Assembly: GCA_950063125.1 (NCBI GenBank)
Contig: CATLZI010000004.1
Location: 1 to 22,347 of the forward strand
Length of the DNA: 22,347 bases
Direction of reading: 5' to 3'
DNA from: an uncultured Porticoccus sp.
GTDB taxonomy: Bacteria; Pseudomonadota; Gammaproteobacteria; Pseudomonadales; Porticoccaceae
Under the pieces are notes generated by a model. It was not told where the DNA came from. It saw only the letters and a list, made by a program, of their open reading frames with translations, and searched no databases. Positions 6,440-22,150 of the stretch are shown piece by piece (the first letter of the stretch is position 1; each line of letters starts with the position of its first letter). The translations under genes were made by a program, and so were the position numbers.

Positions 6440-8149
6440 TTAGCAAACCAGTTTTGACAGGCATGAAATACACTGATCGATAGTCCGGTAGACCGACTGG
6501 TAAACCGGTTGCGGTTTGTTGTAGGGGTCCGGAATTTCAGCGGCTGATTGATCAGCAAACAGGCCGCCGAGCAGCAGTGCCTTGTCTGCGGCAGCTTGTG
6601 AAAAGGTAGCCAGTTGTTTGACGTGATCGGCCTCCATGACAAAAATGATGTCTGCCCACTCGGTTAATTCCGTGGAGAGCACCGACGAACGGAGGTGGTT
6701 CATAGGCACTCCCTCCGCTGCGGCAATAGCGGCCATTCTCGGGTCTGCCGGTCGGTTTCCCAGCGGGTGAAATCCCGCTGATTTGAAGAAATACTGCCCG
6801 GTATCCGGGATCTTTTTTTCTGCCAGGGCCTGAGCCACAGCACTGCGATTGATATTGCCATAGCATAAAAACAGTATATGGCTGGCTGTCGACAGTCGAT
6901 CGCTGACCAATGAATAGCGACTGCGCCTGATAATCCCGTTGCGGAACTGTTTGTCCCGGTAAACACCGCTCAATCGGTCGGTGTAGCTGCGAACAATTTG
7001 CCAAAGGTCTACAAAACCAGGTTTAAGATCAGACAAGGACTGGGCATCGAAATAATGTCTGGGGGAGAATGCCTTCAGCAAATCTTTCATGGCATCGCCC
7101 AGTGCCGGGATAGTCACCAGTCGGGGATCGGCATCTTTGCGTGCCACGGCTTCCAGCCAACGAAGGTCACTGGACAGTTTTCGGCAGTAGATCTCAGTCC
7201 GGTAGGGCTTTGTTTCAATCGGTTGGGCGGTATAAAGCTGATAAAGCTGATAGGGAAAGTCCGCCCCGGCGGCAACGGCGAGAGGCAGTGAACCCCAGAA
7301 ACGACCGTTGATTTCAATCAGAATAAATTTACCGTTTTCCGGATTCTGTTTGAATTCCACCATGGCGACACCGTGCCAGTTCAGCTGTTTGATCAGCCGG
7401 GCACTGACTTCGAGCAATACCGGATCAACATTGACACTTTTACGATAACTGCTGCCGCCCCCGCTAAGGGGCATTTCATGAAGGCGCTGATGCTGAAAGG
7501 CGCTAACGATCTCGCCGCGGTTGGCAATTAACTCAATACCCTTGCCGATTCCGGAAAAATACGCCTGCAGCACCAGATGGCCGTGCTCGAGCAGTTCCGT
7601 GCCCACTTTGACCAGCTCTTCTTCTGAATGGGCGTAGCGGACCGACAGTGGCTTCCGTAGCGAATTGTCTGAAATGGAGCGGCCCGGTTTGATCACCATC
7701 GGATAGCTGAATTCCGGCAATGCAGCCCGAAGCTCTGCGATGTTCGCAATATCCCAGCTGGCGGGTAAGGGTGCATTGCACTGCCTGGCGAGCAGGGCCG
7801 TCCGCGACTTGTCCAGCACGGTTTCCAGCGCATCCAGCTCCGGTACGGCAATCCTGTTGTAGTGGGAGCTGTTGTGAAAGTGCCGGGCTATGGGTACCAG
7901 GGTTCGCTCCGTGGCCGGGATCACCAGTTGGTACTGGTGACCGGCGAGCTGATCTTCTATCCAGCGAACAAAGTCATCGGGCGCTTGTAGCGGATTCGGA
8001 TAATCGAGCACATTCGAGGCGTAACGGGAGTAGCCAGCAATGGGGCTTTGCTGGTGAGAGGCAACGGCTACCGGAATGCCCCGGCTACCCAGCGAACGGG
8101 TAATCGCCAGAGCCGGTAATGTGTCCCCATCGAGCAGAAGGATAGTCAT
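6440..8149 (-). CDS. Fusion: ATP-grasp ligase + low-molecular-weight protein tyrosine phosphatase
   Basis: 569 residues from the ATG at 8149 (MTILLLDG); a TTG two codons earlier is possible and abuts the upstream stop. Residues 1-400 are an ATP-grasp enzyme: an N-terminal Rossmann-like segment, a nucleotide-binding lysine (VIKPGRS, near 153), SGIGKGIELI, and the metal-binding LIEINGRFWGS (about 277-287). Residues 424-569 form a complete LMW-PTP domain: ILFLCYGNINRSA is the CX5R P-loop (C429, R435), with general-acid Asp in DPYNKP (D541). ATP-grasp enzymes join a carboxylate to an amine or thiol via acyl phosphate. LMW-PTPs such as Wzb dephosphorylate BY-kinases that control polysaccharide export. 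No BY-kinase is in the window. A polypeptide joining both suggests coupling of glycan modification with export control, which is inference. Confidence 0.88.
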   Translation of the reverse strand: MTILLLDGDTLPALAITRSLGSRGIPVAVASHQQSPIAGYSRYASNVLDYPNPLQAPDDFVRWIEDQLAGHQYQLVIPATERTLVPIARHFHNSSHYNRIAVPELDALETVLDKSRTALLARQCNAPLPASWDIANIAELRAALPEFSYPMVIKPGRSISDNSLRKPLSVRYAHSEEELVKVGTELLEHGHLVLQAYFSGIGKGIELIANRGEIVSAFQHQRLHEMPLSGGGSSYRKSVNVDPVLLEVSARLIKQLNWHGVAMVEFKQNPENGKFILIEINGRFWGSLPLAVAAGADFPYQLYQLYTAQPIETKPYRTEIYCRKLSSDLRWLEAVARKDADPRLVTIPALGDAMKDLLKAFSPRHYFDAQSLSDLKPGFVDLWQIVRSYTDRLSGVYRDKQFRNGIIRRSRYSLVSDRLSTASHILFLCYGNINRSAVAQALAEKKIPDTGQYFFKSAGFHPLGNRPADPRMAAIAAAEGVPMNHLRSSVLSTELTEWADIIFVMEADHVKQLATFSQAAADKALLLGGLFADQSAAEIPDPYNKPQPVYQSVYRTIDQCISCLSKLVC

Positions 8150-8155
8150 TGGCAA

Positions 8156-9040
8156 TCATTTCAACCTGTCTTGAAGGTTGTTCGCATCAATCGTCAGCTG
8201 GGCCAACCTTTCCAGCATCTGGCTGGTATGAGAACGAATCACCGCAGGGTTGCTGTTAAAGGATTTTTCCTCTTTGATCAGGCGCTTCAATTGTTGTCTG
8301 GCCAGAAAGGACTTGCCTTTATTGAGCAGGGTTTTGGTGGTGGTGGACCGCCTGTCGTCGAAAATCGAGACCAGATTTGCCGGCTCATAGACCACATTGA
8401 TTGATTGGCACCAGTCATGCCATTTGAACTGGTTGATGTGGGGCATGGTGTTGATGGGGCGCCAGGGTATGCCATAGGCATCAGCAATAATTGCACCATG
8501 AAGCGATTCAGTAATGACGTATTTTGAGGCAATCAGGTCGTTAATAACGATGAGGGGGTCTTTTGTCCTTGGGTCAATGTGGTGGATTCCCAGGTCATTG
8601 GCGATATGCTTCCAATAGCCACTTTTTGCGGTGTCGCAATGCATGATCAATGACACCTCGTGAATTTTTTCGGCTTCGGGTATAAATTTCCTTAACAGGA
8701 TAGCGGGATCAGTCAGGGCTTTGGATGGATCAATACCCAGCTTTTTGGCAGTTTGTGGGCCTCTGACAAAATAGATGTTGTACTTTTCATCAATCTCCGG
8801 TGAAGAGAAATAACCCACCCCGGAGCCCGCAATAAATTTTACTGGAAGCGGGGGAATTCTCTGGTCGAGTATGGTGCCAATCCCGTACAGCAGGGCCGCT
8901 TCCCGATTGTTTTCCTCGTAGTATTCTTCACCATGTTTGGCGATACCCTGAATGACGCCAGGCAGTAATTTTGGCCATAACCAGGCATTCAAATCGTCTC
9001 CAAAATTACCTTCGTTGTCATGGTAGTAACAGAGCTTCAT
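8156..9040 (-). CDS. Polysaccharide pyruvyl transferase family protein
   Basis: 294 residues. Members of this family add pyruvate as a 4,6- or 3,4-ketal to sugars of exopolysaccharides, using phosphoenolpyruvate. Visible family marks are the N-terminal NEGNFGDDLNAW (N12, GDD 14-16), GSGVGYFSS (72-80), FVRGPQTAKKLGI (91-103), LTDPAILL and the C-terminal TESLHGAIIADAYGIP (177-192; H181 is the conserved residue of this motif). A Lys-rich C-terminal tail of about 70 residues lies beyond the core. The length is close to the family norm. GAGG lies about ten bases before the ATG. The stop abuts the ATP-grasp/phosphatase gene, so the two are probably co-translated. It supplies carboxylates to the polymer that neighbouring ligases could act on (inference). 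Confidence 0.88.
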   Translation of the reverse strand: MKLCYYHDNEGNFGDDLNAWLWPKLLPGVIQGIAKHGEEYYEENNREAALLYGIGTILDQRIPPLPVKFIAGSGVGYFSSPEIDEKYNIYFVRGPQTAKKLGIDPSKALTDPAILLRKFIPEAEKIHEVSLIMHCDTAKSGYWKHIANDLGIHHIDPRTKDPLIVINDLIASKYVITESLHGAIIADAYGIPWRPINTMPHINQFKWHDWCQSINVVYEPANLVSIFDDRRSTTTKTLLNKGKSFLARQQLKRLIKEEKSFNSNPAVIRSHTSQMLERLAQLTIDANNLQDRLK

Positions 9041-9087
9041 AAATTGCTTGCCTCAGGCTGTATGTGATTGGTTGTTATGAACAGACT

Positions 9088-9879
9088 TTATTGTATTTCA
9101 TCCAAATAAAAGGGAACGCGTTCAGGGAAATACTCCCTGATTAGATCCTCGCAGTGGCCCCATACCTTTCTTGTCAGATAGTGCTCATCAATGCCCTCTA
9201 TAAAAGAGGCTTTCTCTGGTTCAGAGTTGGCGTGTGAGGTATTGATATCTCGTGCATTGATGTTTAAAAACCGGGCAATTTCTCCAGATTCCCGAGACAG
9301 GTTGTCTGTTCTGATGTAAAGGCTGGCAGCCTCCGGAAGATGCTGCTTTGCCAGCAGATAGTGTTCATTATATTGGGACAGATAAGCATCGAGAGAAGCC
9401 AGCTGGTTGGTCTCGAGAACGGCCTCTTCCGGATCATACCCGCGGGTTTTGTCCATCCAGAAATACTGGCGATATTCCTCCCACTCAGGCGGATGTTTTT
9501 TGAAGTGGAAGTTGATTCTGGACTTGATCCAGCTCAATGGCTCCCTGACGGTAATTAAATATTTTGCGTCGGGAAACAGGCCGACAACTTCCTTTGCTAT
9601 GTAAATTAATGAATGGGTAGATTCCATTTCAAGGTTCAGTTTTCTGTCCCGTTTTTCAATAAAGGATTGAACCTCTTCAGCCGTTATTTCATTTTTTAAA
9701 TAGTTGATGATTTGATGATTGGTCTCTGAAATAGCTGGCTCGTGGGCCGAATCAAAGTGGGCCTTAAACATGGAGGAAATCGACGTTGTGCCTGTCTTGG
9801 CGGCACCGATACAGTAACAATGAAATCGTCGGGGCAGTACCTTGTAGGTTCTGAGCCGCAATTGGTTATAAATAGACAC
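9088..9879 (-). CDS. PAPS-dependent sulfotransferase family protein
   Basis: 263 residues from a GTG start at 9879, supported by AAGGAG five bases upstream. The PAPS 5'-phosphosulfate loop reads CIGAAKTGTTSI (K28, T29, T31), and the 3'-phosphate-binding motif is TVREPLSWIKSRIN (R112, S120). These two motifs and their spacing identify the cytosolic-type sulfotransferase fold. There is no signal peptide or membrane segment, so it acts in the cytoplasm, probably on a lipid-linked repeat unit before flipping or on a nucleotide-activated sugar. It lies between the flippase and pyruvyl transferase genes, which points to sulfation of the same glycan. Sulfated exopolysaccharides are common in marine bacteria. 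The exact acceptor is unknown. Confidence 0.88.
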   Translation of the reverse strand: MSIYNQLRLRTYKVLPRRFHCYCIGAAKTGTTSISSMFKAHFDSAHEPAISETNHQIINYLKNEITAEEVQSFIEKRDRKLNLEMESTHSLIYIAKEVVGLFPDAKYLITVREPLSWIKSRINFHFKKHPPEWEEYRQYFWMDKTRGYDPEEAVLETNQLASLDAYLSQYNEHYLLAKQHLPEAASLYIRTDNLSRESGEIARFLNINARDINTSHANSEPEKASFIEGIDEHYLTRKVWGHCEDLIREYFPERVPFYLDEIQ

Positions 9880-9927
9880 AGTGGCTCCTTATGAGGCACT
9901 TGATGTTCAGCCTGTTGATTCTGATCC

Positions 9928-11367
9928 TCATATCCTGCCCTTTCCGGCAAAGCTGTTTATTTCATTGTAGAAGGCATGGTTGGAAAGCTTGAGACCAACG
10001 ATCCACCCTACAAATGCCGCTGCCATCAATAGAGCAAATTGAATATAAATGCTTTCGATATGTTCCTGCATCAGGGAGTTTACAGCCAGTGTTGGTGATA
10101 TTGTGAAAATCAATGGCATCAAACCCTGGGCGGCAGGTTTTGCGGCATCTTTCATCCCAATGCCAAATACCTGGTTTGCATAAAACTGGCAGGCGATAAA
10201 CCTGACAATAAAGAATCCCACCAGCGCCAGGCAAACTGCTTCCAGTCCTACAAAGCAGGCTCCGCCCACCATTATGATTTTTGCAACGTTCGAAATGACC
10301 TTGATCTTCAGTGTGATTCCCGGTCTGCCATAGGCAATGAACAGGTTGTCGGCAAACAGGAATGACGGCAGCAGTACACCCGCCAGGCAGAGGATTTTTA
10401 CCAGCGGAATGGCGGCATCCCACTGCGTGCCATACAGCACCCTTATGGTTTCTTCCGTGTAGAGAAAAAGGAAGGTAAAAAAGGGCCAGGCAAAAATATA
10501 GGAGTAAGTGACAGCCTTGAGATAGCTCTCCCTCAGCTTGCCCGTGTGAATGTTGTCCCGGGAGAAAAGCGGCAGGATGACCCCGCGGATGCTGCTGACA
10601 AAGATATGATCGAACAGTGAAAAAGTACCAAAGGCCCGGGAAAAGTAGCCCAGCTGTGCGAGACCGAGCATGCGGGCAATCAGGGCATCGGTGATACTGG
10701 TGGCAAACTGGTTGATGATGTTACCCGCGCCGACAATGGAGCCGAACCTGAATATATTTTTGGCGCCTTCCAGGGTGGGGGTAAGACTCACATCCCGGGG
10801 TCGAAAGAAAACTGACAGAAGTACAATGCTGGAGGTCTCGGTGATCGCGCCATAGGCGAGACAGAGATAGCCGGAACCGGTGTAGGCCGTTGCCAGGGAG
10901 ACACCGATGCCCAACAGGGTTGCGGTTAGGCCAATAGCCGCAGTGATATGAAAGCGCATTTTCTTGCGCAGCAATGCCAGGGTGATAGTGCCAAAGGGGA
11001 TGATAAAAAAGTTGAAGGAAAGAATCCTGATCAGCGTTTCTATGCCTTGTTCCTGGAAAAAGTCGGCAATCAGGCCCGCCGCGAAAAAGAGCAAAGCCCC
11101 CAGCGCCCAGGACATCAATAGGTTTAGCGTGAAGGTTGTTCTGATTTTCGTCTCATTCAATTCTTTTTCCTGAATAATGTACTGATTCAGGCCAAAGTCG
11201 CGAAACAGTTGGGCCAGCGCCACGATGGCAAAGCCCGCACTGAAAATGCCAATCTCTTCCGGCGTCAGCAGACGGGCCAGGATCATGGTTGAGACAAACT
11301 GAAAGGAAAGCGTCAGATACCTGCCGGTGATACTGAATCCAATGGCTGTGCGAGTGGTGATAGTCAT
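9928..11367 (-). CDS. Polysaccharide flippase, Wzx/PST type (MOP superfamily)
   Basis: 479 residues, almost wholly hydrophobic with about 12-14 membrane segments. The N-terminus (FVSTMILARLLTPEEIGIFS) is the signature opening of PST/Wzx proteins, followed by FRDFGLNQYIIQ and, near 210-250, RFGSIVGAGNIINQF and ARMLGLAQLGYFSRA. It would flip undecaprenyl-diphosphate-linked oligosaccharide units across the inner membrane. It is first in the minus-strand run, preceding the sulfotransferase by 48 nt. No strong Shine-Dalgarno sequence is seen before the ATG, so the start is probable rather than certain. Which glycan it moves cannot be read from sequence, but its neighbours suggest a sulfated, pyruvylated polymer. 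Confidence 0.9.
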   Translation of the reverse strand: MTITTRTAIGFSITGRYLTLSFQFVSTMILARLLTPEEIGIFSAGFAIVALAQLFRDFGLNQYIIQEKELNETKIRTTFTLNLLMSWALGALLFFAAGLIADFFQEQGIETLIRILSFNFFIIPFGTITLALLRKKMRFHITAAIGLTATLLGIGVSLATAYTGSGYLCLAYGAITETSSIVLLSVFFRPRDVSLTPTLEGAKNIFRFGSIVGAGNIINQFATSITDALIARMLGLAQLGYFSRAFGTFSLFDHIFVSSIRGVILPLFSRDNIHTGKLRESYLKAVTYSYIFAWPFFTFLFLYTEETIRVLYGTQWDAAIPLVKILCLAGVLLPSFLFADNLFIAYGRPGITLKIKVISNVAKIIMVGGACFVGLEAVCLALVGFFIVRFIACQFYANQVFGIGMKDAAKPAAQGLMPLIFTISPTLAVNSLMQEHIESIYIQFALLMAAAFVGWIVGLKLSNHAFYNEINSFAGKGRI

Positions 11368-11654
11368 CAGGTCGAATAAACTCTGGGTTTGGCAGGCAAT
11401 TTTATAACGGACTGCAAGTCTATCTTATATTCGACAGCCTGAAGAACACTCCGCCAAATAAGATGTTCTTTGTCCTTACCGGACTGGCTTGATCAGCGCT
11501 TAAATCAGGCCGGTGTTCTGAGGATGTAAAACATTCTGACAAACTTTTTGCCCGCTGTGGTTTCGGCCAAAAACGTAAAAAATACCGACAGTTGTTAGCG
11601 GCCTCGCACACTGTCAGAATCCTTGGCTTGGAGAAAATGTCCGAGGATTAATAA

Positions 11655-12620
11655 ATGAATCATCTGCTGTACAGCGCAGTTGCCAGAACACTGCCCCTTG
11701 TGCTGCAGACAAAAAATAAACAGCGGGTTTGTATTCTCACCTACCACCGCGTGTTGCCTGAGCGTGATTACATGCGCAGTTCCGAGCCGACAGTGGCGAC
11801 ATTCGATTGGCATATGGAGCTGCTCGCCCGCTACTTCAATCCGCTTTCGCTGTCTGATGCCATTGCCAGACTGGATAGCAATGATCTGCCGGAAAGGGCT
11901 GTTTGCGTGACCTTCGACGATGGGTATGCCAACAACGCAGACTATGCGTTACCGGTATTGCAGCGTTGGAGCATACCCGCCACCGTATTTATTTCCACGG
12001 GCTTCCTCAATGGTGGCCTGATGTGGAACGATGCGGTGGTCGAGGCATTACGAATTGCCGGGAGTGGCGAGTTTGATCTGCGTTCGCTCGGTCTGGCTAC
12101 TTACGATCTGGCTGATTTCCATCACCGCAGACAGGCAGCGGGTCAGATTATTCGTGAAATCAAGCATTGGCCACCGGAAAAGCGTGCCGAGGCTATTCGT
12201 GTTATTCAGTCGATGGTGGGGCCCTTGCCGGAAAATATGATGCTGACCAATGACCAGGTGAAGCAATTGAGAGATGCCGGTATCGAAATTGGCGCTCACA
12301 CCCGGACCCATCCCATCCTGGCCATGTTGAAACTCGCCGATGCCCGGCAGGAAATTCAGGCTTCAAAAGATGCGCTGGAAACACTCACAGGCAAACCGAT
12401 TCGCTATTTTGCCTACCCCAATGGCCGGCCCGAGATCGACTATCGGCTGGAACACCGCGATTTTGTCAAATCCATCGGTTTTGAGGGGGCGGTGTCTACC
12501 CAGTGGGGGGTTGCCAGCGAGTCTAGCGATCGTTGGCAGTTGCCGAGATTTACCCCCTGGGACCAGACGCCATTGCGGTTTATGACGCGCTTGCTGGCAA
12601 TGTTCAGGAGCCCGGCTTGA
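11655..12620 (+). CDS. Polysaccharide deacetylase family protein (NodB-homology, CE4)
   Basis: 321 residues. Motifs run in family order: ILTYHRVLPERD (27-38), the metal-binding VTFDDGYANNADYALPVL (D88 base, D89 metal), PATVFISTG (108-116), the H-x3-H pair in EIGAHTRTHPIL (H215, H219), and FAYPNGRPEIDY (252-263). D89, H215 and H219 form the expected divalent-metal triad, so it should be active in removing N-acetyl (or O-acetyl) groups. There is no clear cleavable signal peptide. GAGG lies eight bases before the ATG. Its stop is three bases from that of the convergent TPR gene. Enzymes of this type in export loci act on the polymer or on a lipid-linked unit; a peptidoglycan substrate is less likely given the neighbours. 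Confidence 0.87.
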   Translation: MNHLLYSAVARTLPLVLQTKNKQRVCILTYHRVLPERDYMRSSEPTVATFDWHMELLARYFNPLSLSDAIARLDSNDLPERAVCVTFDDGYANNADYALPVLQRWSIPATVFISTGFLNGGLMWNDAVVEALRIAGSGEFDLRSLGLATYDLADFHHRRQAAGQIIREIKHWPPEKRAEAIRVIQSMVGPLPENMMLTNDQVKQLRDAGIEIGAHTRTHPILAMLKLADARQEIQASKDALETLTGKPIRYFAYPNGRPEIDYRLEHRDFVKSIGFEGAVSTQWGVASESSDRWQLPRFTPWDQTPLRFMTRLLAMFRSPA

Positions 12621-13498: not shown

Positions 13499-14533
13499 AT
13501 GTCAGAAATGAAACACTGGATATTTCATTTGGCGAAGTATACGGGGCTGTTTGCCCTGTGCCGTTGGATAACGGCTCGTGATCTTCGAATACTTGCCTAT
13601 CACGGAATCTGGCTCGGCCAGGGTCATTATGGCAATTATCTTTTTATGAGTGCCGATAAATTTGCTGCAAGGATGCAGAAAATCCGGGCGCTTGGCTATC
13701 CGGTGTTGAGCCTGACTGAGGCATTGACCCGTCGTGAAAGCAACACGCTACCAGCTAATACAGTGGTGCTGACCATTGATGATGGTTGGTATGGCATCTA
13801 CCTGCATATGCTCCCCGAGCTGGAAAAGCACCAATTCCCCGCAACCCTGTATGTCACCACTTACTACAGTGAAAAACAGTGGCCAGTGGTGAATGTTGCG
13901 CTGCATTATCTGGTCTCAAGGACAGGTTTGGCGAGAGTAAGCCTTGCCGATCTCGGCATCCCCGGTGGTCAGGTTTATGACCTGGCAGAAAGTGATCAGC
14001 GTTCGGATCTTGCCAAAACACTGCAGTGCCATATCGAACAGTTGCCCGGTGAAGAAGAGCGGCAGGCCTTTCTCTGGCAGGTAGCGGATCAACTGGGTTT
14101 TGACCGGGAGCTGATCTGCTCAGAAAAGTGGTTTCACCTTGCGAGCCCTTCACAGGTTCAGGAAATGTCCCGGCGCGGTCTGGATATTCAACTGCATACC
14201 CACCGTCACCGAATCTCAAAAGCGGGACAATTCTGTGTTGAAGAGGAGATAGAGGGTAATCGTGCTCGACTGGAGCCTCTGACAGGACAGCCACTGCAAC
14301 ATTTCTGTTACCCCAGTGGCGTGTATGATCGGGCGATTTGGCCAGACCTGAAAAAGCTGGGTATTGCCTCAGCTACAACCACTGCGTCGGGTTTGGTCGG
14401 CAGAGATGCCGAGATTTATGCTCTGCCACGAATTCTGGATGGCGAGCATGTTTCAGACCTGGAGTTTGAGGCGGAACTGTCCGGTTTGCTTGAGCTAAAG
14501 CGATCTTTTTTCAAATGGCTGAAAACAGGATGA
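13499..14533 (+). CDS. Polysaccharide deacetylase family protein (second, divergent)
   Basis: 344 residues. The motifs match CE4 deacetylases: ILAYHGIWLG (31-40), VVLTIDDGWYG (89-99; D94 base, D95 metal), PATLYVTTYY, the metal histidines in DIQLHTHRHR (H233, H237), and FCYPSGVYDRAIW. All three metal ligands are present. It is only distantly like the deacetylase at 11655: the loop after DDG and the central insert (about 130-210, EQLPGEEERQAFL) differ, so this is not a recent duplication. The ATG at 13499 follows AGGG by three bases; an ATG three codons later is possible. There is no signal peptide. It probably N- or O-deacetylates a glycan intermediate of the same locus. Confidence 0.85.
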   Translation: MSEMKHWIFHLAKYTGLFALCRWITARDLRILAYHGIWLGQGHYGNYLFMSADKFAARMQKIRALGYPVLSLTEALTRRESNTLPANTVVLTIDDGWYGIYLHMLPELEKHQFPATLYVTTYYSEKQWPVVNVALHYLVSRTGLARVSLADLGIPGGQVYDLAESDQRSDLAKTLQCHIEQLPGEEERQAFLWQVADQLGFDRELICSEKWFHLASPSQVQEMSRRGLDIQLHTHRHRISKAGQFCVEEEIEGNRARLEPLTGQPLQHFCYPSGVYDRAIWPDLKKLGIASATTTASGLVGRDAEIYALPRILDGEHVSDLEFEAELSGLLELKRSFFKWLKTG

Positions 14534-14792: not shown

Positions 14793-15965
14793 ATGACTGA
14801 AATATATTTGAAAGGAAACACTTTAACGCAAATAGGTCAGAAAATCCGTGTGGAGGCCGTCGTGGAGGGCTGTGAGCCCATTTGGTTTGAGCTGGACAAG
14901 CAATTTCAGTCCATGATCGACACTGAATCAGTGGATGCCTTTTTTGTTCTCTATACCTGGCTCGCTATGGAGCGTGGTTTAGATCTCAAAATAGAAGGCA
15001 AGGTGTCCAGACAGCTGGCTGATGCCGTGTCACACGATATAAAAAAAATGTTTCTCGCGTTATGCCCACGTTTGCATGAGATTGATATCGACGTACTCAA
15101 TCCGGAGTCATCCTGGCAACAGTCAGACGGGTCTTCTGCAACAGGGTTCAGTGGTGGGGTGGATAGTTGGTATACAGCCTTGCAGGCTGAGGAAAATGGT
15201 ACCCCGTATGCCTATTATTTGTTCGCGAATACAGGGCAACATGGTAAAGACAACGTTGAAGAAGTTTTTGCGCAAAGGTTTGCTGTAGCAGAAAGTGCCT
15301 TGTGTACCATGAATAAACCCCTGATAGCAGTCAATAGCAATATTGACCGTATTTTCAGAGAGCGTTTTCAGCAGCGTGATGTGATAGGCAACATTGCCTG
15401 TGCGCTGTTATTGCAGCAGGGTATTTCCAGATATGATTATTCTTCCAGCTATGCGCCTGAAGACCTGGGGGTGTTCGAGCACTACGACATGTCAATTATG
15501 GACCCCTATCTCCTGCCATTACTCAATACCGAAAGAATCCGTTTTTTCTCCATCGGGGATGAGGCTGGAAGAATAGAAAAACTTGAGTTTATTTCATCCA
15601 GAGACCTGTTCAGCAATGAAATATATGTATGCATAGAAAAAACTATCCCCATAAAAAACTGTGGTTATTGCTTTAAATGCAGAAGGACGCAGCTTGCCCT
15701 GGAAAGTATTGATAGGATGGCTTTATTAAAAAATAATTTTGATTTCAGCTTCTATCAAAAAATACGCTTGGGTTCTATGGTTGGGTTGTTTTCGAGTGCT
15801 AATGAAAACAACCTTGATCTTGAAATAAAAAATAAATTAAAAACTGAAAAAAACTCGAATATATTTATGCTTCGAGCAATTTCGATTTTCTGGTCTTTAA
15901 CAAAGAAGTTGATGCCAGAGGGCATAAGATGGCGAACAGAGCAGAAGTTTCCTTACTTATGGTAG
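14793..15965 (+). CDS. QueC-like PP-loop ATPase with extra N-terminal domain (copy 1)
   Basis: 390 residues. The PP-loop ATP-pyrophosphatase motif GFSGGVDS is at 118-125, mid-protein, preceded by about 115 residues not found in QueC. A Cys4 site, C280-x9-C290-GY-C293-FK-C296-RR, matches the zinc site of 7-cyano-7-deazaguanine synthase (CGxCxxCxxR). PP-loop enzymes adenylate a carbonyl or carboxylate and replace the AMP with nitrogen or sulfur; QueC makes an amide and then a nitrile. It is not ordinary QueC: it has the extra N-domain, lies in a surface-glycan locus, and no queD/queE is near. It shares length and architecture with the next gene, 39 nt downstream. Base composition is richer in A/T than the deacetylase genes. 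Ribosome site is weak. Role inferred: amidation of a sugar-linked carboxylate, or a nucleobase-like synthesis. Confidence 0.72.
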   Translation: MTEIYLKGNTLTQIGQKIRVEAVVEGCEPIWFELDKQFQSMIDTESVDAFFVLYTWLAMERGLDLKIEGKVSRQLADAVSHDIKKMFLALCPRLHEIDIDVLNPESSWQQSDGSSATGFSGGVDSWYTALQAEENGTPYAYYLFANTGQHGKDNVEEVFAQRFAVAESALCTMNKPLIAVNSNIDRIFRERFQQRDVIGNIACALLLQQGISRYDYSSSYAPEDLGVFEHYDMSIMDPYLLPLLNTERIRFFSIGDEAGRIEKLEFISSRDLFSNEIYVCIEKTIPIKNCGYCFKCRRTQLALESIDRMALLKNNFDFSFYQKIRLGSMVGLFSSANENNLDLEIKNKLKTEKNSNIFMLRAISIFWSLTKKLMPEGIRWRTEQKFPYLW

Positions 15966-16004
15966 CTGCATTGTTCTTATAGGAATCTTTCAGGAGCTAT
16001 TTAC

Positions 16005-17177
16005 ATGAACAAGAAATTGCTCATAAGTGATATAAAGATAAAGCAGGAAGATGGATTTAATATTTTATCTGCCGATGTTGATGGCGATTTAGTTTTTTTT
16101 AAAGTTCCAGATAAATTTCCCTTATACATAAATGCTGAGTGGTTTATCGGGGTTTCTCTTCTGGAAGCCATGGTTTCCCAGCGGGATATACAAGTTGATG
16201 CAGGTGTGGCTGTGTCCCGGTTTTTTTATGGCCAGCTCAGTGAATTACAAACGATATATTCCAGGTGGAACCCCAAGCTTCAAAAAATCGCATTGAACTG
16301 TGAGCTGAGTAATCGCGATAAGCAGTTCACTCATACGGGAAGTTTCTTTTCTGCGGGGGTTGATAGCTCCTATACCCTTATCGCCAAGCGTGATGAAATC
16401 ACTCATCTTATTATGCTGCGCGGTTTTGATATGGGCGATGATGATTTCGCCTGGAATCGCCGCGTTGAGCACCAAACAGCGTTTGCTGAAAGCAGTGGGA
16501 AGCAACTGATCCCAGTGGATACCAACGCCCGGGACTGGACAGAGAAAAAAGAGATCGGTTGGAGTTTTGCCCATGGTTTATTGATTTCCTCTGCAGGTGG
16601 GAATCTGGGTATGAAGTGTCTTTATGTTGCTTCATCACATACTTACGATCACCTGTTCCCTTGGGGTTCCCACCCACTAACTGACCCTATGTGGAGTACG
16701 GAATCAACTAAAGTGATCCATCACGGTTCCGGAGCCACTCGTACCCAGAAGACAAAAACAATTCTGGAGTCCCCCGATGTGGCTGAAAACCTCCAGGTAT
16801 GCTGGAATAGCATTGATAAAAACTGTGGACAGTGTTCCAAGTGTATACGGACCATGGCAGCAGTCTTCCTGTTAAATGGTGATGTCAAAACGTTACCAAA
16901 ACTTCAGATGGATCAGTTAAAAAAACTGCAGCCTACCTCCCGGGCAACAAAATCTTTCGTAATAGATTTGCTTCTTCTGGCTGATGAGACAGGAAATATG
17001 GAAGTTTACAAAAGACTGAAAAAATATTATTTGAAATCTGAGAGAAGTAAAATAGGTCCGCTGATCGATAAATGTTTTCTAAACGGTATATTAAAGAGAA
17101 CCTATCGGCGCATTATGAAACCAAGGTGGCTAACGTTAAGAGTTGTTCCGATCAATACAGAAAACTACGATCTTTAA
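16005..17177 (+). CDS. QueC-like PP-loop ATPase with extra N-terminal domain (copy 2)
   Basis: 390 residues, a divergent paralogue of the preceding gene. The PP-loop is SFFSAGVDSSYT (S116, D120, S121), with Ala in place of the first Gly of SGGxDS. The zinc-like site is C266-x7-C274-GQ-C277-SK-C280-IRTMAA. The N-terminal 110 residues align by eye with copy 1 (patterns VSLLEAMVSQRDIQV and VSRFFYGQLSEL). Residues 141-230 differ most (DDDFAWNRRVEHQ, SSHTYDHLFPWGSHPL), so the two probably have different substrates or form a heteromer. AGGAG lies nine bases before the ATG. It is likely co-transcribed with copy 1. The C-terminus (from about 300) is basic and of no recognised fold. Confidence 0.72.
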   Translation: MNKKLLISDIKIKQEDGFNILSADVDGDLVFFKVPDKFPLYINAEWFIGVSLLEAMVSQRDIQVDAGVAVSRFFYGQLSELQTIYSRWNPKLQKIALNCELSNRDKQFTHTGSFFSAGVDSSYTLIAKRDEITHLIMLRGFDMGDDDFAWNRRVEHQTAFAESSGKQLIPVDTNARDWTEKKEIGWSFAHGLLISSAGGNLGMKCLYVASSHTYDHLFPWGSHPLTDPMWSTESTKVIHHGSGATRTQKTKTILESPDVAENLQVCWNSIDKNCGQCSKCIRTMAAVFLLNGDVKTLPKLQMDQLKKLQPTSRATKSFVIDLLLLADETGNMEVYKRLKKYYLKSERSKIGPLIDKCFLNGILKRTYRRIMKPRWLTLRVVPINTENYDL

Positions 17178-17310
17178 AGTTAAATCTTTTAACAGTTTAT
17201 TAATTTCAAGAGAGAATAGAAAATATGTCTGGCAGATAGAGGTTTTGTGGCACATTCACTATGTTTAAGCACGACCACGTTCCCAGCTTGGTGGCTGGTG
17301 GGGTTTCCTT

Positions 17311-17391
17311 TTATACTGCCCGATTTACAAATGCCGCTGGACTGATGTGGCCCATCGAGCTAGGTGGTCGAATATAATTGTAGTGGTATCG
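17311..17391 (-). pseudogene. IS3-family transposase C-terminal remnant
   Basis: On the minus strand the frame reads YNYIRPPSSMGHISPAAF followed by five residues and TAA at 17313-17311. This is the usual last segment of an IS3-family OrfB integrase (YN..RPHSSLG..SPAAF). It opens after a TGA just upstream (17394-17392), and nothing recognisable as the DDE core precedes it. It is a scar of an insertion, different from the two elements further right because the tail residues differ. Confidence 0.65.
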
Positions 17392-17708
17392 TCATTCCCT
17401 GATGATCGATCCTGCATTATTTAAATCCTAGAACTAATCCCGAGTCTGAACACGACTGGCTGTCTGGTTTTTTCCACATCTCGGCAATCTGTCCCTTCAT
17501 CGGAACGGTACCAGTCTTAATCCCCCTTCGGGCATGTGGGCATCGTGCACCCACCCCCGTCCTCTAGCTCGCTTTCTGAGGGTAATTGTTGGCCTCGGTC
17601 TCATGGCTGGATAGAAGGTTTTTGGACGGCAGTACACAACAATTCGGTTACCAGATCGGTACTCCATGCTCGACCTTTCAGTTCAATAGCGTTACTCTTT
17701 TCCACGGT

Positions 17709-17764
17709 GGCGTATCTCTCCGGTTGGTGACTTGTGTTGTAGCAACAAATAAACTAGATACGCC
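17709..17764. repeat. 9-bp inverted repeat with nested hairpin
   Basis: GGCGTATCT (17709-17717) and AGATACGCC (17756-17764) are exact complements around a 38-nt loop, which itself contains TGTTG-TAG-CAACA. The arrangement resembles a small folded element or a MITE-like end rather than a terminator, since no T-run follows. It lacks the GTTRRRY/RYYYAAC core of an integron attC site. It ends 82 nt upstream of the GNAT start. Confidence 0.4.
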
Positions 17765-17846
17765 GACTCTGTATACTCAAACACCACCTTCGGTCACAAC
17801 TCGATTTTAATCTTGTTGTCGACTAATTGTATGAAGAGAGGGCGTT

Positions 17847-18512
17847 GTGAAAAAATATTCGTCAGAATGGTTTTTATACCATTTAAGAAATAACGGTGTC
17901 TCACGGTGGGTTTCAAGCAGTAGTTCTTTGTATCTATTGGCAATAACAAAGGATTCGCGCAAGCCACTTGACTTAAACCTTCCATTTAAAATAAACCAGT
18001 GGGAAGATCTAGAATGTTTCGAGGAAACGGAAAGCTGGCATAATAAGAAGTATTTTTTAAGTAATGCACAAGAACAGCTAAACAGTGGCGCTATCTGTGT
18101 AACCCTTGTTCAAAACCAACAGCTTGCTTTTATTTCTTGGGTGAAGCCGGAATCAACTAAGAGTACCTTTGGGAGTGTTAAACAAACTGTTTTTTATCCG
18201 CCCTATACATCGACTCAATATTCTGGGTATGTTCATCCGAATCATAGAGGAAAGCGGATTTTTGTAGAGGGTCTGAATTTTTTGGCACATTATGTTTTTG
18301 ATGAAACCGATACAAAATTAGCTGTCGCCGCTGTAGACGCAAATAACTTGCCAGCAATGAAAAGTCACTTAACCTCTGGCTTTGAACCTATAGCACGATT
18401 TGATACAACTCAACTATTCGGTAATGAGAAATTTTATATGGCTGAACTAACACCTCACTACAAATTTAGCCGTGTGAATACTGCAACTTGGCGGCTGGAA
18501 GCTGCTGGGTGA
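17847..18512 (+). CDS. GNAT-like N-acetyltransferase
   Basis: 221 residues from GTG at 17847, preceded by GAGAGGG; no in-frame ATG gives a better start. The C-terminal half matches the GNAT fold: motif A at about 125-143 (YSGYVHPNHRGKRIFVEGL, with the HRGKR acetyl-CoA pyrophosphate loop) and motif B at about 163-182 (VDANNLPAMKSHLTSGFEPI), where N..A...H...GF is typical. The N-terminal 100 residues are less conserved and may form the acceptor site. GNAT enzymes in glycan loci acylate amino-sugars or an amino-acid substituent. Its stop overlaps the ATP-grasp start by four bases, so the two products are probably made in equal amounts and work together. A/T-rich codon use sets it apart from the left half of the window. 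Confidence 0.75.
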   Translation: MKKYSSEWFLYHLRNNGVSRWVSSSSSLYLLAITKDSRKPLDLNLPFKINQWEDLECFEETESWHNKKYFLSNAQEQLNSGAICVTLVQNQQLAFISWVKPESTKSTFGSVKQTVFYPPYTSTQYSGYVHPNHRGKRIFVEGLNFLAHYVFDETDTKLAVAAVDANNLPAMKSHLTSGFEPIARFDTTQLFGNEKFYMAELTPHYKFSRVNTATWRLEAAG

Positions 18513-19717
18513 GCATATCTGTATTTGTTCCTGATGCTCATGCACGTGCCTGTGTCGCTGCGATACGCTCTTTAGGTCGTGCTGGTTATAACGTGCATGC
18601 GGGCTCGTCAAATTTTGATGCATTAGGTTTGAAATCCAGATTTGCTAATCACTCGGTCGTTTATCCCCCGTTTATTGATCCATTGTTTCTTGATTGGATG
18701 AGAGACTATGTTGCTAGGCACGACATAAAAATGATTGTTCCGACGAGCGCTGTATTGGAAGCTCTAAAGCCCTCATTTGAAGAGTTCAAACCTCTGCTTC
18801 CGGTTACTGCCGATGAGAAAGTTCTTTTTGACTGTTTCAGTAAGTCAACTATTGTGAGTAAATTTATTAATGCCGATCCTGCGTTAAATTTGATGAAAAA
18901 CCATCCTCAATCCTCAGTGGTCGACTTAACAAAACCAATAGATTTCAGAGTGTTGCCCAAATCCAAAACTGGATACTACCTCAAGTCAGAAAAGCTACGA
19001 CCTCATGGTTCTGAATCAGCAACCTCCTTTGCATTTGCAGAAAATGGCAAGAGAGCCCTAGCCGCGTTGAACTCGATGGCATCCGATTGGGAGTTTGCTC
19101 TTGTCCAAGAGGCTTGCAGCGGTTTTCAGGTTGGCGTGTCTGTCCTGATCGATAATGGTAAAGTACTTGCGGTGTCCTGTGTTCGTGATTGTCACCAGCG
19201 TCCGCACAGCAGGGGAACCATGTCCTTAAGACAAAGCTGTTGGTTCCCGGAAATCGCAGATGATACGATTAATCGACTTTCGTATTTGAATTGGCAAGGT
19301 TGTGCCATGGGGGAGTATCGTTATGACGAGAGTACTCATACCTTCAAGTTGATCGAAATAAACTTTCGGTTTTGGCAGTATCTGCACTTGGACCTTTTTG
19401 CTCGAATGGATTACCCACTAATGCAGGCACAGTGGTTTCTTGAAGGCAAATCGTATTTTGATACCAGACCCAAGCTGGGTGTAGTGTGCCGTGATACTTG
19501 GCCGGGTGAAGTTGCTCAGTTGGTGAATGAGTGGCGCAGGGATGATTTTAGTCTTTTTTCAAAGATACAAAGTTTCTTTATGTTTTTTGTGCGCTCTCTA
19601 AATCCATATATTCGTAGCGACTTTTTTTTCCCGGGGGATCGCACTTTATATTTTCAAAACTTTGTATACTACTTAAAAAGTGAATTAAATGCTTTATATG
19701 CACGACTTAAGAAATAG
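18509..19717 (+). CDS. ATP-grasp domain ligase
   Basis: 402 residues from GTG at 18509, which overlaps the GNAT stop (GTGA); a TTG at 18488 is in frame but less likely. An N-terminal pre-ATP-grasp domain (SISVFVPDAHARACVAAIRS) resembles that of the ligase/phosphatase fusion (TILLLDGDTLPALAITRSL). The ATP-grasp core shows TGYYLKSE (K159), ALVQEACSGFQVGVSVLI (197-214) and the metal site FKLIEINFRFWQY (279-291; E283, N285). In the fusion the same motif is LIEINGRFWG, so the two are homologues that have diverged. The C-terminal 90 residues contain a hydrophobic patch (IQSFFMFFV) that might sit at the membrane. It is likely to ligate an amino acid or amine to a carboxylate. The acceptor is unknown. 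Confidence 0.8.
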   Translation: MSISVFVPDAHARACVAAIRSLGRAGYNVHAGSSNFDALGLKSRFANHSVVYPPFIDPLFLDWMRDYVARHDIKMIVPTSAVLEALKPSFEEFKPLLPVTADEKVLFDCFSKSTIVSKFINADPALNLMKNHPQSSVVDLTKPIDFRVLPKSKTGYYLKSEKLRPHGSESATSFAFAENGKRALAALNSMASDWEFALVQEACSGFQVGVSVLIDNGKVLAVSCVRDCHQRPHSRGTMSLRQSCWFPEIADDTINRLSYLNWQGCAMGEYRYDESTHTFKLIEINFRFWQYLHLDLFARMDYPLMQAQWFLEGKSYFDTRPKLGVVCRDTWPGEVAQLVNEWRRDDFSLFSKIQSFFMFFVRSLNPYIRSDFFFPGDRTLYFQNFVYYLKSELNALYARLKK

Positions 19718-20436: not shown

Positions 20437-21507
20437 CTACGCACCTCTAATAAACTCTTTGCAGAACCTTCCCAAACCTGTGGAAGACATGTCATTGCCT
20501 CCTTTTTGATAGACTGGAATAGCAAGAAATGAATTGGGTTCGATGATTATTGGCCCTTCTTTTGAAATAGCGATATCCCAACCCAGGTGGCTGGGGTAGG
20601 GTATAAGTTTGTGTGCAGCTATGGCTAGCTCAAGAGATTCTTTCCAAAAAGGAACAATATATTGGAAAATGCGAAAATGCGAATCTGGGTGAAACTCTAT
20701 TTGTCGCTGAGATAAAGACCCTGTGAACCCTTTACCTAAAGAGCCGTTATTCATGTCCATGAAAGCAAATACCCTTCCTCCTACACTATCATTGTCTGTT
20801 ATTGATTTTCCCGCACCAAACTTCATTAGAGCGCAATCAACTGTATAATTATTATCTTGGTTCATGAAAGTCACTACGCGTAATGAATTTACGGAATGTT
20901 CGTGGAAAGTAGACAAGTCAGGGTGCTGGACTATGTATTCCTGCAAGATATAACCTTCGAGATTTTCAAGATCATCAAATAAAAAAGACATAAATGAACC
21001 TATCGAAAGTGTCCCCTGCTTTCGCATAGTTATCGTATTATATTGACTCTCGTATTTTTCGATTACATCGAAACCTATACCGTTGGCACCGTCTATCGGT
21101 TTTATTACAACAGGAAAATTCACGTTGCTAAAAAAACTTGTCAGGGTGTCTTCTGATAAATTGACAGTGGCTCCATTTAGCACCCCTATTCTTTTATTGA
21201 AGAAGCCCAATGTATTAGAGTGGGGCAAACCATTGGCTTTCCATACGCAAGATTGTATCCACTTGTTGAATGGAACCACCCCGCTTCTTCTTGGATTTAA
21301 ATATTTCTCAGCCTTTGTATATTCAGCTTCGGAAATTAAAGAACGTTTGCCGAGTTCAGTGTATAAAGGAATTCCGTAATAGCTCAGCGCAGAAAAGCCG
21401 TGAAATCGATAGTATAAAATTTCAATAAATTGTTGAAATCTATTCTTTTTTGATATTTCTTTGAATTGTTTGGAATTCTTTCTCCAGATTTTTAATAGAT
21501 TTGACAT
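20437..21507 (-). CDS. Sugar-transfer-associated ATP-grasp protein
   Basis: 356 residues from ATG 21507, chosen because AAGAGG lies six bases before it; a 396-residue reading from 21627 has no ribosome site and begins in less typical sequence. The ATP-grasp core is clear: FPVVIKPIDGANGIG (131-145; K136), YILQEYIVQHPDL (186-198), the family-marking HEHSVNSLRVVT (202-213), VGGRV (242-246) and the metal site GPIIIEPNSF (318-327; E323, N325), plus LGWDIAI. These fit the ATP-grasp subfamily often encoded beside sugar-transfer genes. N-terminal residues 1-80 are helical and basic. It probably ligates a carboxylate to an amine on a glycan precursor. It is A/T-rich and bracketed by two dead IS3 fragments, suggesting acquisition by transfer. 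Confidence 0.82.
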   Translation of the reverse strand: MSNLLKIWRKNSKQFKEISKKNRFQQFIEILYYRFHGFSALSYYGIPLYTELGKRSLISEAEYTKAEKYLNPRRSGVVPFNKWIQSCVWKANGLPHSNTLGFFNKRIGVLNGATVNLSEDTLTSFFSNVNFPVVIKPIDGANGIGFDVIEKYESQYNTITMRKQGTLSIGSFMSFLFDDLENLEGYILQEYIVQHPDLSTFHEHSVNSLRVVTFMNQDNNYTVDCALMKFGAGKSITDNDSVGGRVFAFMDMNNGSLGKGFTGSLSQRQIEFHPDSHFRIFQYIVPFWKESLELAIAAHKLIPYPSHLGWDIAISKEGPIIIEPNSFLAIPVYQKGGNDMSSTGLGRFCKEFIRGA

Positions 21508-21666
21508 CTGTGCCTCTTGTTCATAAGTAGATACTTTTGTGAGTTTCCATTTTAACTGAAGCAGCCATTCGTAGAATTTTAAGCTCCCATCAGTAATCGT
21601 TGATGCGGTATGCCTCCGATGCAACATTTAAATCACATATCATTTCGGTTTTCTCCGCGCATAGTG

Positions 21667-22150
21667 TGTAATCCCCCCATTTATAACCGGAGTTATCAGT
21701 AGAGGATTAGGCTGCCTGTAGCAACTGTCTCGGCGGTATGCCGCCAATGGCAGAGTGAGGCCGTTGGTTATTGTATTGCCAAAGCCACAGGGTGACTAAC
21801 AACTGGGTATGCTCAATAGATTCAAATAGGTGCATGTCTAGCCATTCCTGTCTGGGCGTTCGGTTAAATCGTTCAATATATAGGCATTCTGCGTCGGCTT
21901 GCCCGGCTGGATATACAGCAAGGTGATCCGGTGCGTGTTTGCTCAATGGACCAGCATTTGGTTCAGGTATTGTACCCAATACCCTTCTAGGGGGGGCTCT
22001 CACACCGAAGTGCAACGGGTTTGCCTCGCTATTCGATAATCTGGTCTAACGATCGGATAACTCTGGCGGATTGCAGAGACGGATCCACTTCAATACCCAG
22101 ACCTTCGCGGTTGTAGTCGTCCATCACATTGGTGCAGAAGGTATCTATAG
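21667..22150 (-). mobile_element. Decayed IS3-family insertion sequence, 3' part
   Basis: Read on -, this begins inside OrfB and ends about 40 nt after its stop with a TGTAATCCCCCC-type terminal sequence (as read on +, starting 21667), common for IS407-like members of IS3. The 5' part and other end are missing. Orientation is opposite to the copy at 19749, and the ends of the two are only loosely alike, so they may be different elements. The left-hand end lies 160 nt upstream of the sugar-transfer ATP-grasp start. Confidence 0.78.
21707..22150 (-). pseudogene. IS3-family OrfB, 3' fragment with nonsense codon and frameshifts
   Basis: The upper segment reads NVMDDYNREGLGIEVDPSLQ and then SLDQIIE, followed by TAG (22031-22029) where the family has Trp, then RGKPVALRC in the same frame. 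The sequence then degenerates with shifts; a two-base gain near 21880 restores the last segment, YIERFNRTPRQEWL to QRPHSAIGGIPPRQL and TAA. The final catalytic Glu of DDE (YIER) is kept, the rest is not functional. Confidence 0.8.

Follow-up and report, generated by a model that had tools for sequence, protein, structure and literature searches.

A tandem pair of QueC-like genes

The window analysed here, a 22,347-nucleotide stretch of a contig from an uncultured Porticoccus sp., contains two adjacent forward-strand genes, each with an ATG start and each coding for a protein of 390 amino acids: protein A (14793..15965) and, after a gap of 39 bp, protein B (16005..17177). Protein A has an N-terminal domain (approximately residues 1-110), a QueC-like PP-loop core, a zinc site and C-terminal helices; protein B shares this architecture and belongs to another subfamily, and in both about 115 extra residues precede the QueC-like part. 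Alignment places the PP-loop of A (SGGVDS, residues 120-125) at 15150..15167 and its zinc site, C280-x9-C290-xx-C293-xx-C296 (C-x9-CGYCFKCRR), at 15630..15680, and in B the PP-loop (SAGVDS, residues 116-121) at 16350..16367 and the zinc site, C266-x7-C274-xx-C277-xx-C280 (C-x7-CGQCSKCIR), at 16800..16844, all on the + strand. The sequence-only reading had described tandem 390-residue frames with an S(G/A)GVDS PP-loop and a C-x7/9-CGxCxKCxR site, and every detail checked was correct. Its view that the two are clearly diverged is also borne out, as they fall in separate clades and BLASTP aligns them at 24% identity over 290 columns (E = 5e-10), spanning the N-domain, PP-loop and zinc site.

A polysaccharide deacetylase (de-N-acetylase; Pfam) lies upstream of A at 13499..14533 (+). 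Beyond B are a GNAT acyltransferase (17847..18512, +, Pfam), an ATP-grasp protein with a weak Pfam match (18488..19717, +), a sugar-transfer associated ATP-grasp protein (ATPgrasp_ST; 20437..21627, -, Pfam) and an IS-type reading frame (21707-22015). A polysaccharide pyruvyl transferase (PF04230; 8156..9040, -) represents the partner most tied to the PP-loop family elsewhere. Other glycan genes at 6440..12620 encode an ATP-grasp/LMW phosphatase fusion, a sulfotransferase and a flippase-like protein named from its sequence, all on the - strand, and there is a second polysaccharide deacetylase at 11655-12620 (+). Scans for promoters and terminators found about as many as expected by chance (12 vs 10.9 and 5 vs 5.3, respectively), and an Rfam scan gave no match.

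Membership of an unnamed PP-loop family

Sequence searches returned 71 homologues of A (E ≤ 1e-3) and 180 of B. Searches of NCBIfam and PADLOC gave nothing for A or B at E ≤ 1, and the sole Pfam match, of B to DUF6395, scores 14 bits, under the cut-off of 25; the profile search that had been proposed thus finds no characterised family for the pair. The QueC profile PF06508 matches neither A nor B at E ≤ 1, and is matched weakly by four of 38 diverse family members (best 4.7e-4). The QatC profile NF041925, with a cut-off of 280 bits, is matched by one of the 38, at 0.0037, and by nothing in the window's own genome. TIGR03573 (N-acetyl sugar amidotransferase) matches neither A nor B at E ≤ 1, and none of 113 B-type or 38 diverse members at E ≤ 0.01. 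Against the PDB, phmmer with A and B and a search with a B-type profile gave no matches, an A-type profile gave MnmA P-loop matches, noise and one QatC row at E = 1.8, and a profile of the 38 diverse members found QatC as its best chain (E = 0.0044). Alignments by hhalign, made with seven QatC-type sequences (four over the NF041925 cut-off) and 30 QueC sequences, were weak for QatC (probability 31-53%) and are by themselves too weak to prove homology to QatC or QueC.

A and B are members of an unnamed PP-loop family present in bacteria and haloarchaea, which is uncharacterised in the libraries and open-access PMC literature searched. It is a new branch of a known scaffold and is neither plain QueC nor an amidotransferase, and the case for the family is firmer than any statement about its substrate.

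Predicted fold

Foldseek searches of the PDB with models of A and B found nothing at E ≤ 0.001. On re-alignment with VIA, QatC of the qatABCD system ranks first for both, aligning over 299 and 285 residues compared with 176-184 for QueC, and QatC and QueC score above the sulfur transferases in structure lists that include MnmA, LarE and TtuA; NASAT (8WEX) is not among the matches listed by VIA, which is uninformative. Because the confident models match QatC over most of their length, the extra N-terminal domain can be regarded as QatC-like architecture. The earlier description of a QueC-like fold with an additional domain therefore stands, and the structure models now give that domain a counterpart in QatC.

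Canonical QueC (PF06508) is about 220 residues long, compared to 390 for A and B. Its SGGxDS loop is SGGVDS in A and, with one change, SAGVDS in B, and its four-cysteine zinc motif is retained, whereas its YPDC motif was not seen and its profile is unmatched. QatC (NF041925), the best structural match to A and B over most of their length, resembles them in having extensions both before and after the QueC-like core and in being without the Tyr-x-Asp motif for 7-carboxy-7-deazaguanine (CDG), but the first spacing in its zinc site is C-x19 rather than C-x7/9.

Predicted active site

Conservation was scored in an alignment of 106 family members, after removal from 109 rows of three pyruvyltransferases that had clustered in through a fusion protein (L065). 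All four zinc cysteines are kept in 106/106, as are G122 and D124 (A numbering); N289 is kept in 105, S120 in 103, R260 in 102 and K263 in 101, and position 121 is occupied by Gly in 86 members and by Ala in 17. The conservation of the P-loop is partly by construction, because one of the two patterns used to find many of the rows includes that motif; this selection does not affect the counts for the cysteines, R260 and K263. In 113 B-type sequences from a whole-protein search, S116, G118, D120, K249 and C266 are invariant and R246, C274, C277 and C280 nearly so. Apart from the zinc cysteines, no cysteine is conserved in at least 80% of the 106 members. With their ATP and zinc sites conserved, A and B should therefore be ATP pyrophosphatases, and both are apparently active. 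The Ala in the P-loop of B, previously taken as a hint of a catalytic/partner pair, is the consensus of B's subfamily and recurs across the family, and so is no mark of a dead partner.

The Tyr-x-Asp motif reads 7-deazaguanine in QueC, where it forms part of YPDC, and in Cap9 (PMC13279940), and was not seen in the A/B family when the alignment was read by eye. The corresponding region is GSHPLTDPxWSTE in the B branch, xDPxLLPLLSTE in the A branch and Ser-Thr-Arg-Thr-Thr-His-Pro in QatC. By eye, QatC and the B branch may share an HP in the substrate loop followed by a conserved Lys, and a Thr-x-Thr like that before the HP in QatC was not seen in A or B, neither of which contains T-x-T-T-H-P; the alignment of this loop is unsure, as hhalign pairs STRTT of QatC with WSTEST of B, and not THP with SHP.

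Distribution and pairing

A pattern-based search of species-representative genomes found 67 loci with relatives of B, in Gamma- and Alphaproteobacteria, Planctomycetota, Actinomycetota, Chloroflexota, Gemmatimonadota and others, to which plasmid records add cyanobacteria, Bacillota and haloarchaea. Twelve of these have no reading frame passing the filter (250 aa, 45 bits), leaving 55 for analysis, and six more near a contig end were set aside, leaving 49 with both flanks. Family genes are single-copy at 36 of the 49 and adjacent at 13, which include L025, with converging genes, and L032, with one copy apparently broken. In a quick tree, drawn with midpoint rooting, A lies in a clade of 25 rows (SH-aLRT 100) and B in one of 34 (99); the pair is therefore not a local duplication, and A and B appear to descend from branches that separated long ago.

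The tandem arrangement is not obligatory. A occurs together with B at four loci (the window, L003, L004 and L005), and L006 has two B-type genes and L007 and L008 one each, all three without A. A second mixed pair of clades recurs at L017, L019, L024 and L025, and sister copies are found at L015, L060, L064, L071 and in Priestia. One genome (G242) has as its single family match a relative of A (28% identity), next to genes for a pyruvyltransferase and a sulfotransferase, two families that the window also encodes, at 8156-9879. Homologues are thus not always in tandem. Of the two features that the sequence-only reading held would count against a glycan system, homologues are indeed mostly solitary; they are not unlinked to glycan genes, as the linkage is far above chance, if not present everywhere.

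Association with glycan genes

PF04230 was sought in 40 of the 48 family-bearing genomes and gave 42 matches (E ≤ 1e-9) in 27 of them. By coordinates, 17 lie inside family loci where 0.23 would be expected if evenly spread, an enrichment of approximately 70-fold among matches that are not all independent, some genomes being close kin. This placement is confirmed by a reading frame on the right strand in 14 genomes; the nearby matches at L026, L032 and L063 have no in-frame reading frame, and L045 has no family reading frame passing the filter. PF04230 is fused to the family protein in L065 (Spirochaetaceae; E = 3.6e-28) and in L187, from a genome of the window's class (E = 1.1e-12), so the fusions fall in two phyla.

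Plasmid regions were read for 13 of the 27 records matching B. In six of them the next annotated gene encodes a pyruvyltransferase (Gemmobacter, two Gloeothece, two Azospirillum and Priestia 207, where it stands beside the first of two family genes), and in a Pseudobutyrivibrio plasmid such a gene is two genes away. Among four haloarchaeal members, GNAT and polysaccharide deacetylase genes occur in the region of three, and the fourth has an adjacent ATP-grasp gene. The regions read in a 2.6-kb Priestia plasmid and in Nostoc have no pyruvyltransferase, GNAT, deacetylase or ATP-grasp gene; in Nostoc, however, a polysaccharide tyrosine autokinase is encoded some 5 kb from the family gene. For A, the region read (one of four records), from Paracoccus yeei, is no glycan locus and has catabolic neighbours.

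Proteins like those of E. coli K-12 colanic-acid/O-antigen synthesis are encoded at 26 of 59 family loci (those of the 67 with at least 12 kb), compared with 2 of 20 control regions, which surround QueC in 20 of these genomes (Fisher p = 0.006), and E. coli WzxC was matched 14 times by proteins of family loci. A Pfam scan of 131 of 142 chosen proteins, encoded within two reading frames of family genes at 36 loci, counted seven PS_pyruv_trans, seven Glycos_transf_2 and five ATPgrasp_ST matches among the 25 of 111 families listed. No ATPgrasp_ST, ATP-grasp, GNAT/FemAB, deacetylase or pyruvyltransferase gene lies within 10 kb at 28 of 55 loci, and 33 of 59 have no E. coli-type glycan gene; the family may therefore not be glycan-specific. 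The glycan association is strong but partial: the earlier reading, drawn from the window's neighbours, gains from the PF04230 enrichment and fusions and does not extend to about half of the loci.

The exosortase setting

The closest relatives of A and B are encoded in exopolysaccharide loci of the exosortase type. A recurrent set of genes was seen in relatives from Porticoccaceae, Halieaceae, Bowmanella and Colwellia piezophila, comprising, in varying order, a flippase-like gene, one or two polysaccharide deacetylases, a TPR protein, ATPgrasp_ST, the PP-loop gene or genes and an ATP-grasp gene. At L004, L006-L008, L010 and L015 the de-N-acetylase is followed by ATPgrasp_ST and then directly by the family gene, with 12-52 bp between the end of ATPgrasp_ST and the PP-loop gene; ATPgrasp_ST was not seen beside the PP-loop gene in L003, L005 or the window. 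ATPgrasp_ST relatives lie within 2 kb of a family gene at 11 of 55 loci. Relatives of the ATP-grasp protein at 18488..19717 adjoin a B-type gene in L006, L007, L010 and L015, and one in L186 is fused to a GNAT domain. The ATP-grasp and GNAT neighbours pointed to by the sequence-only reading are thus borne out.

Farther out, the relatives encode a TIGR03108-like Asn-synthase-type amidotransferase, exosortase-A-associated hydrolases 1 and 2, a PLP decarboxylase and an acyl-CoA ligase. TIGR03098/03099/03100/03101 genes exceed their cut-offs in L004/L005, with the same clusters in other relatives; they do not occur inside the window, from which the downstream part of the relatives' synteny is missing, and a partial TIGR03098 relative, below cut-off, is on contig C275 of the window's own genome. 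Exosortase (TIGR02602) is present in 10/10 genomes tested. In the window's own genome it is on another contig (C8), and in G440, G442-G444 and G447 its coordinates lie approximately 17-28 kb from the B-type gene, on what is presumably the same contig.

Deazaguanine and defence genes

Canonical QueC (E < 1e-50) is present in 34 of 48 family-bearing genomes, and the other 14 have weaker PF06508 matches only (best 1.2e-7) or none. Ten of the 14 also gave no PTPS/QueD match in profile searches of genomes of unstated completeness, and are therefore probably unable to make CDG, which argues against deazaguanylation as a family-wide reaction; their family members belong to branches other than those of A and B. 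All six close relatives, G440-G445, have QueC, and a QueD-family gene occurs in the window's own genome (78.5% complete), where no match to PF06508 is stronger than E = 6e-4. Among the 10 of 17 window reading frames scanned with Pfam, queD and queE were not found.

In qatABCD, QatC is accompanied by QatA, QatD and a QatB that starts Met-Gly-Thr-Ser, whereas none of the 17 window reading frames starts Met-Gly, no KAP or TatD match occurs among the 10 scanned, and the neighbours of A and B are glycan genes. Cap9 of type IV CBASS also differs, having about 185 residues, the Tyr-x-Asp motif and a CD-NTase gene beside it (available part of PMC13329287). A search of 50,697 phage records gave no match to B.

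A proposed role in amide formation

The QueC scaffold serves tRNA and DNA modification and, as found recently, anti-phage protein modification. Given the retained ATP and zinc sites, the altered CDG pocket and the surrounding sugar genes, the locus is best read as one for amide formation on a glycan: A and B would be active, anciently diverged QueC/QatC-like enzymes that adenylate a carboxylate and convert it to an amide in surface-glycan assembly, for which we judge the chances to be about even. A or B would bind ATP at the PP-loop and adenylate the carboxylate to give an acyl-AMP and PPi, and the acyl group would then be passed to an amine; in QueC and Cap9 a carboxylate is activated with ATP and then attacked by an amine (PMC13279940; available part of PMC13329287). 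The de-N-acetylase just upstream suggests as acceptor an amino-sugar amine that it would expose, the likeliest amine in this exosortase-type exopolysaccharide locus, and the carboxylate may be that of an amino acid or an acidic sugar substituent. The two enzymes would act independently, on different substrates.

Gene order and the Vim model of another system suggest the de-N-acetylase step. According to the Vim model, a putative deacetylase exposes C-2 and VimA attaches serine or glycine; its authors also point out that VimA-like, deacetylase, exosortase and TIGR03108 genes occur together, and raise the possibility that exosortase systems contain a sugar modified with an amino acid (available part of PMC7468200). 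The Wbp/Vim linking-sugar pathway and exosortase exopolysaccharide loci share with the setting described here a deacetylase, a GNAT-type transferase, an Asn-synthase-type amidotransferase and an exosortase, and that portion of the paper names no PP-loop QueC-like component for them. Marine polysaccharides decorated with amino acids are known, that of Colwellia carrying threonine and alanine (PMC5852497), and an abstract reports amidated glucuronic acid in the Campylobacter capsule (PMC11800379). A bolder version, which we consider quite doubtful, makes the family new glycan amide synthetases that in exosortase loci would build an amino-acid- or acyl-amide sugar joined to PEP-CTERM proteins, and that in other phyla would act on the carboxylate added to a sugar by the fused or adjacent pyruvyltransferase; the compound to which PEP-CTERM proteins are joined is called unidentified in the available text of PMC7468200. 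If amide formation on a glycan is correct, it would be a further use of the QueC scaffold, in surface-glycan loci and fused twice to pyruvyltransferases, and the family would offer a non-defence reference for the QatC reaction as well as candidates for the enzymes behind amide-linked decorations of marine exopolysaccharides and behind the exosortase acceptor.

Alternative readings

Ammonia-dependent amidotransfer, converting a uronate or the N-acetyl group of a nucleotide-linked sugar to a primary amide or amidine as proposed for WbpG/NASAT and WbpS, has precedents and is nonetheless unlikely. WbpG/WbuX (TIGR03573) resemble A and B in combining a PP-loop with a zinc tetracysteine in surface-glycan biosynthesis, so that a glycan enzyme of this kind is already known (available part of PMC10607449), QueC itself uses ammonia (PMC13329287, in the part available), and the A/B family is glycan-linked; but the NASAT cysteine pattern differs (PMC10607449, same portion), the TIGR03573 profile matches none of the family members scanned, the 10 window reading frames scanned with Pfam include no glutaminase-type domain, and the relatives already have the TIGR03108-like amidotransferase, of a uronamide-making kind. 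We regard as very unlikely that A or B joins CDG or a relative of it to a protein N-terminus, as Cap9 does and as has been suggested for QatC. In favour, structural matching ranks QatC first, and CDG could be available in G440-G445 and in the window's genome from their QueC and QueD-family genes; against it, the Tyr-x-Asp motif, a Met-Gly start among the 17 window reading frames and PADLOC matches for A or B were not found, and 14 of 48 genomes have no canonical QueC, 10 of them with no PTPS/QueD match either, although the members concerned belong to other branches than A and B.

Sulfur transfer onto a sugar or tRNA, by thiolation like that of MnmA, LarE or TtuA, is extremely unlikely: these enzymes share the PP-loop superfamily and appear in the structure lists, but QatC and QueC outscore them, the zinc cysteines have QueC-like spacing, and the lack of any further conserved cysteine counts against it. 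There is slightly more to be said for B as a non-catalytic partner or regulator of A, given the tandem arrangement and the P-loop Ala, but the B-type genes without A, the near-invariant B-type active site and the Ala in 17 of 106 members make this highly improbable. Equally improbable is a defence system of the QatC/Cap9 kind that is merely located in a glycan island. The architecture is common to defence relatives and about half of family loci are without the glycan partners sought; against this stand the absence of PADLOC matches for A and B and of B matches in the phage records, together with the enrichment of PS_pyruv_trans near the family and its fusion with it.

Domain fusions and glycan genes around relatives

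Members of the QueC/QatC-like PP-loop family to which A and B belong are fused to a polysaccharide pyruvyl transferase at L065, a Spirochaetaceae locus (6844-9081), and at L187 (9663-11924). In Gloeothece plasmids (L142 and L178), the family gene and a pyruvyltransferase gene lie within glycosyltransferase clusters that have non-ribosomal peptide synthetases nearby, and the product of these loci is perhaps a glycosylated peptide. At L186 (91-1920), ATP-grasp and GNAT domains are joined in a single 609-aa protein, and both are related to the adjacent genes of the window at 17847-19717.

The GNAT gene of the window is separated from B by 669 bp (17178-17846) in which no ORF is listed. An ORF at 21707-22015 is IS-type transposase-like, as named from its sequence, and exosortase-type genes, which are found downstream in relatives, are absent from the window. 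At 6440-8155 (minus strand), an ATP-grasp protein includes a fused low-molecular-weight protein tyrosine phosphatase domain, so that it looks like a glycan ligase with a built-in phosphatase of the Wzb type.

Other arrangements of family genes

Three consecutive family genes, in the order A-B-A', are present on another Porticoccus contig (L003 8783-12537). A second pairing, with genes of two distinct family clades side by side, recurs at four loci in Gammaproteobacteria and Gemmatimonadota (L017 8818-11101, L019 9995-12390, L024 8739-11077 and L025 10001-12616), around which the glycan context is less evident; one member of each of these clades is also carried by a single SAR86 contig (L021 and L028), with approximately 49 kb between them. 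The 2633 bp Priestia megaterium plasmid pS3 has two annotated genes, the larger of which (L183 804-2009) is a family member.
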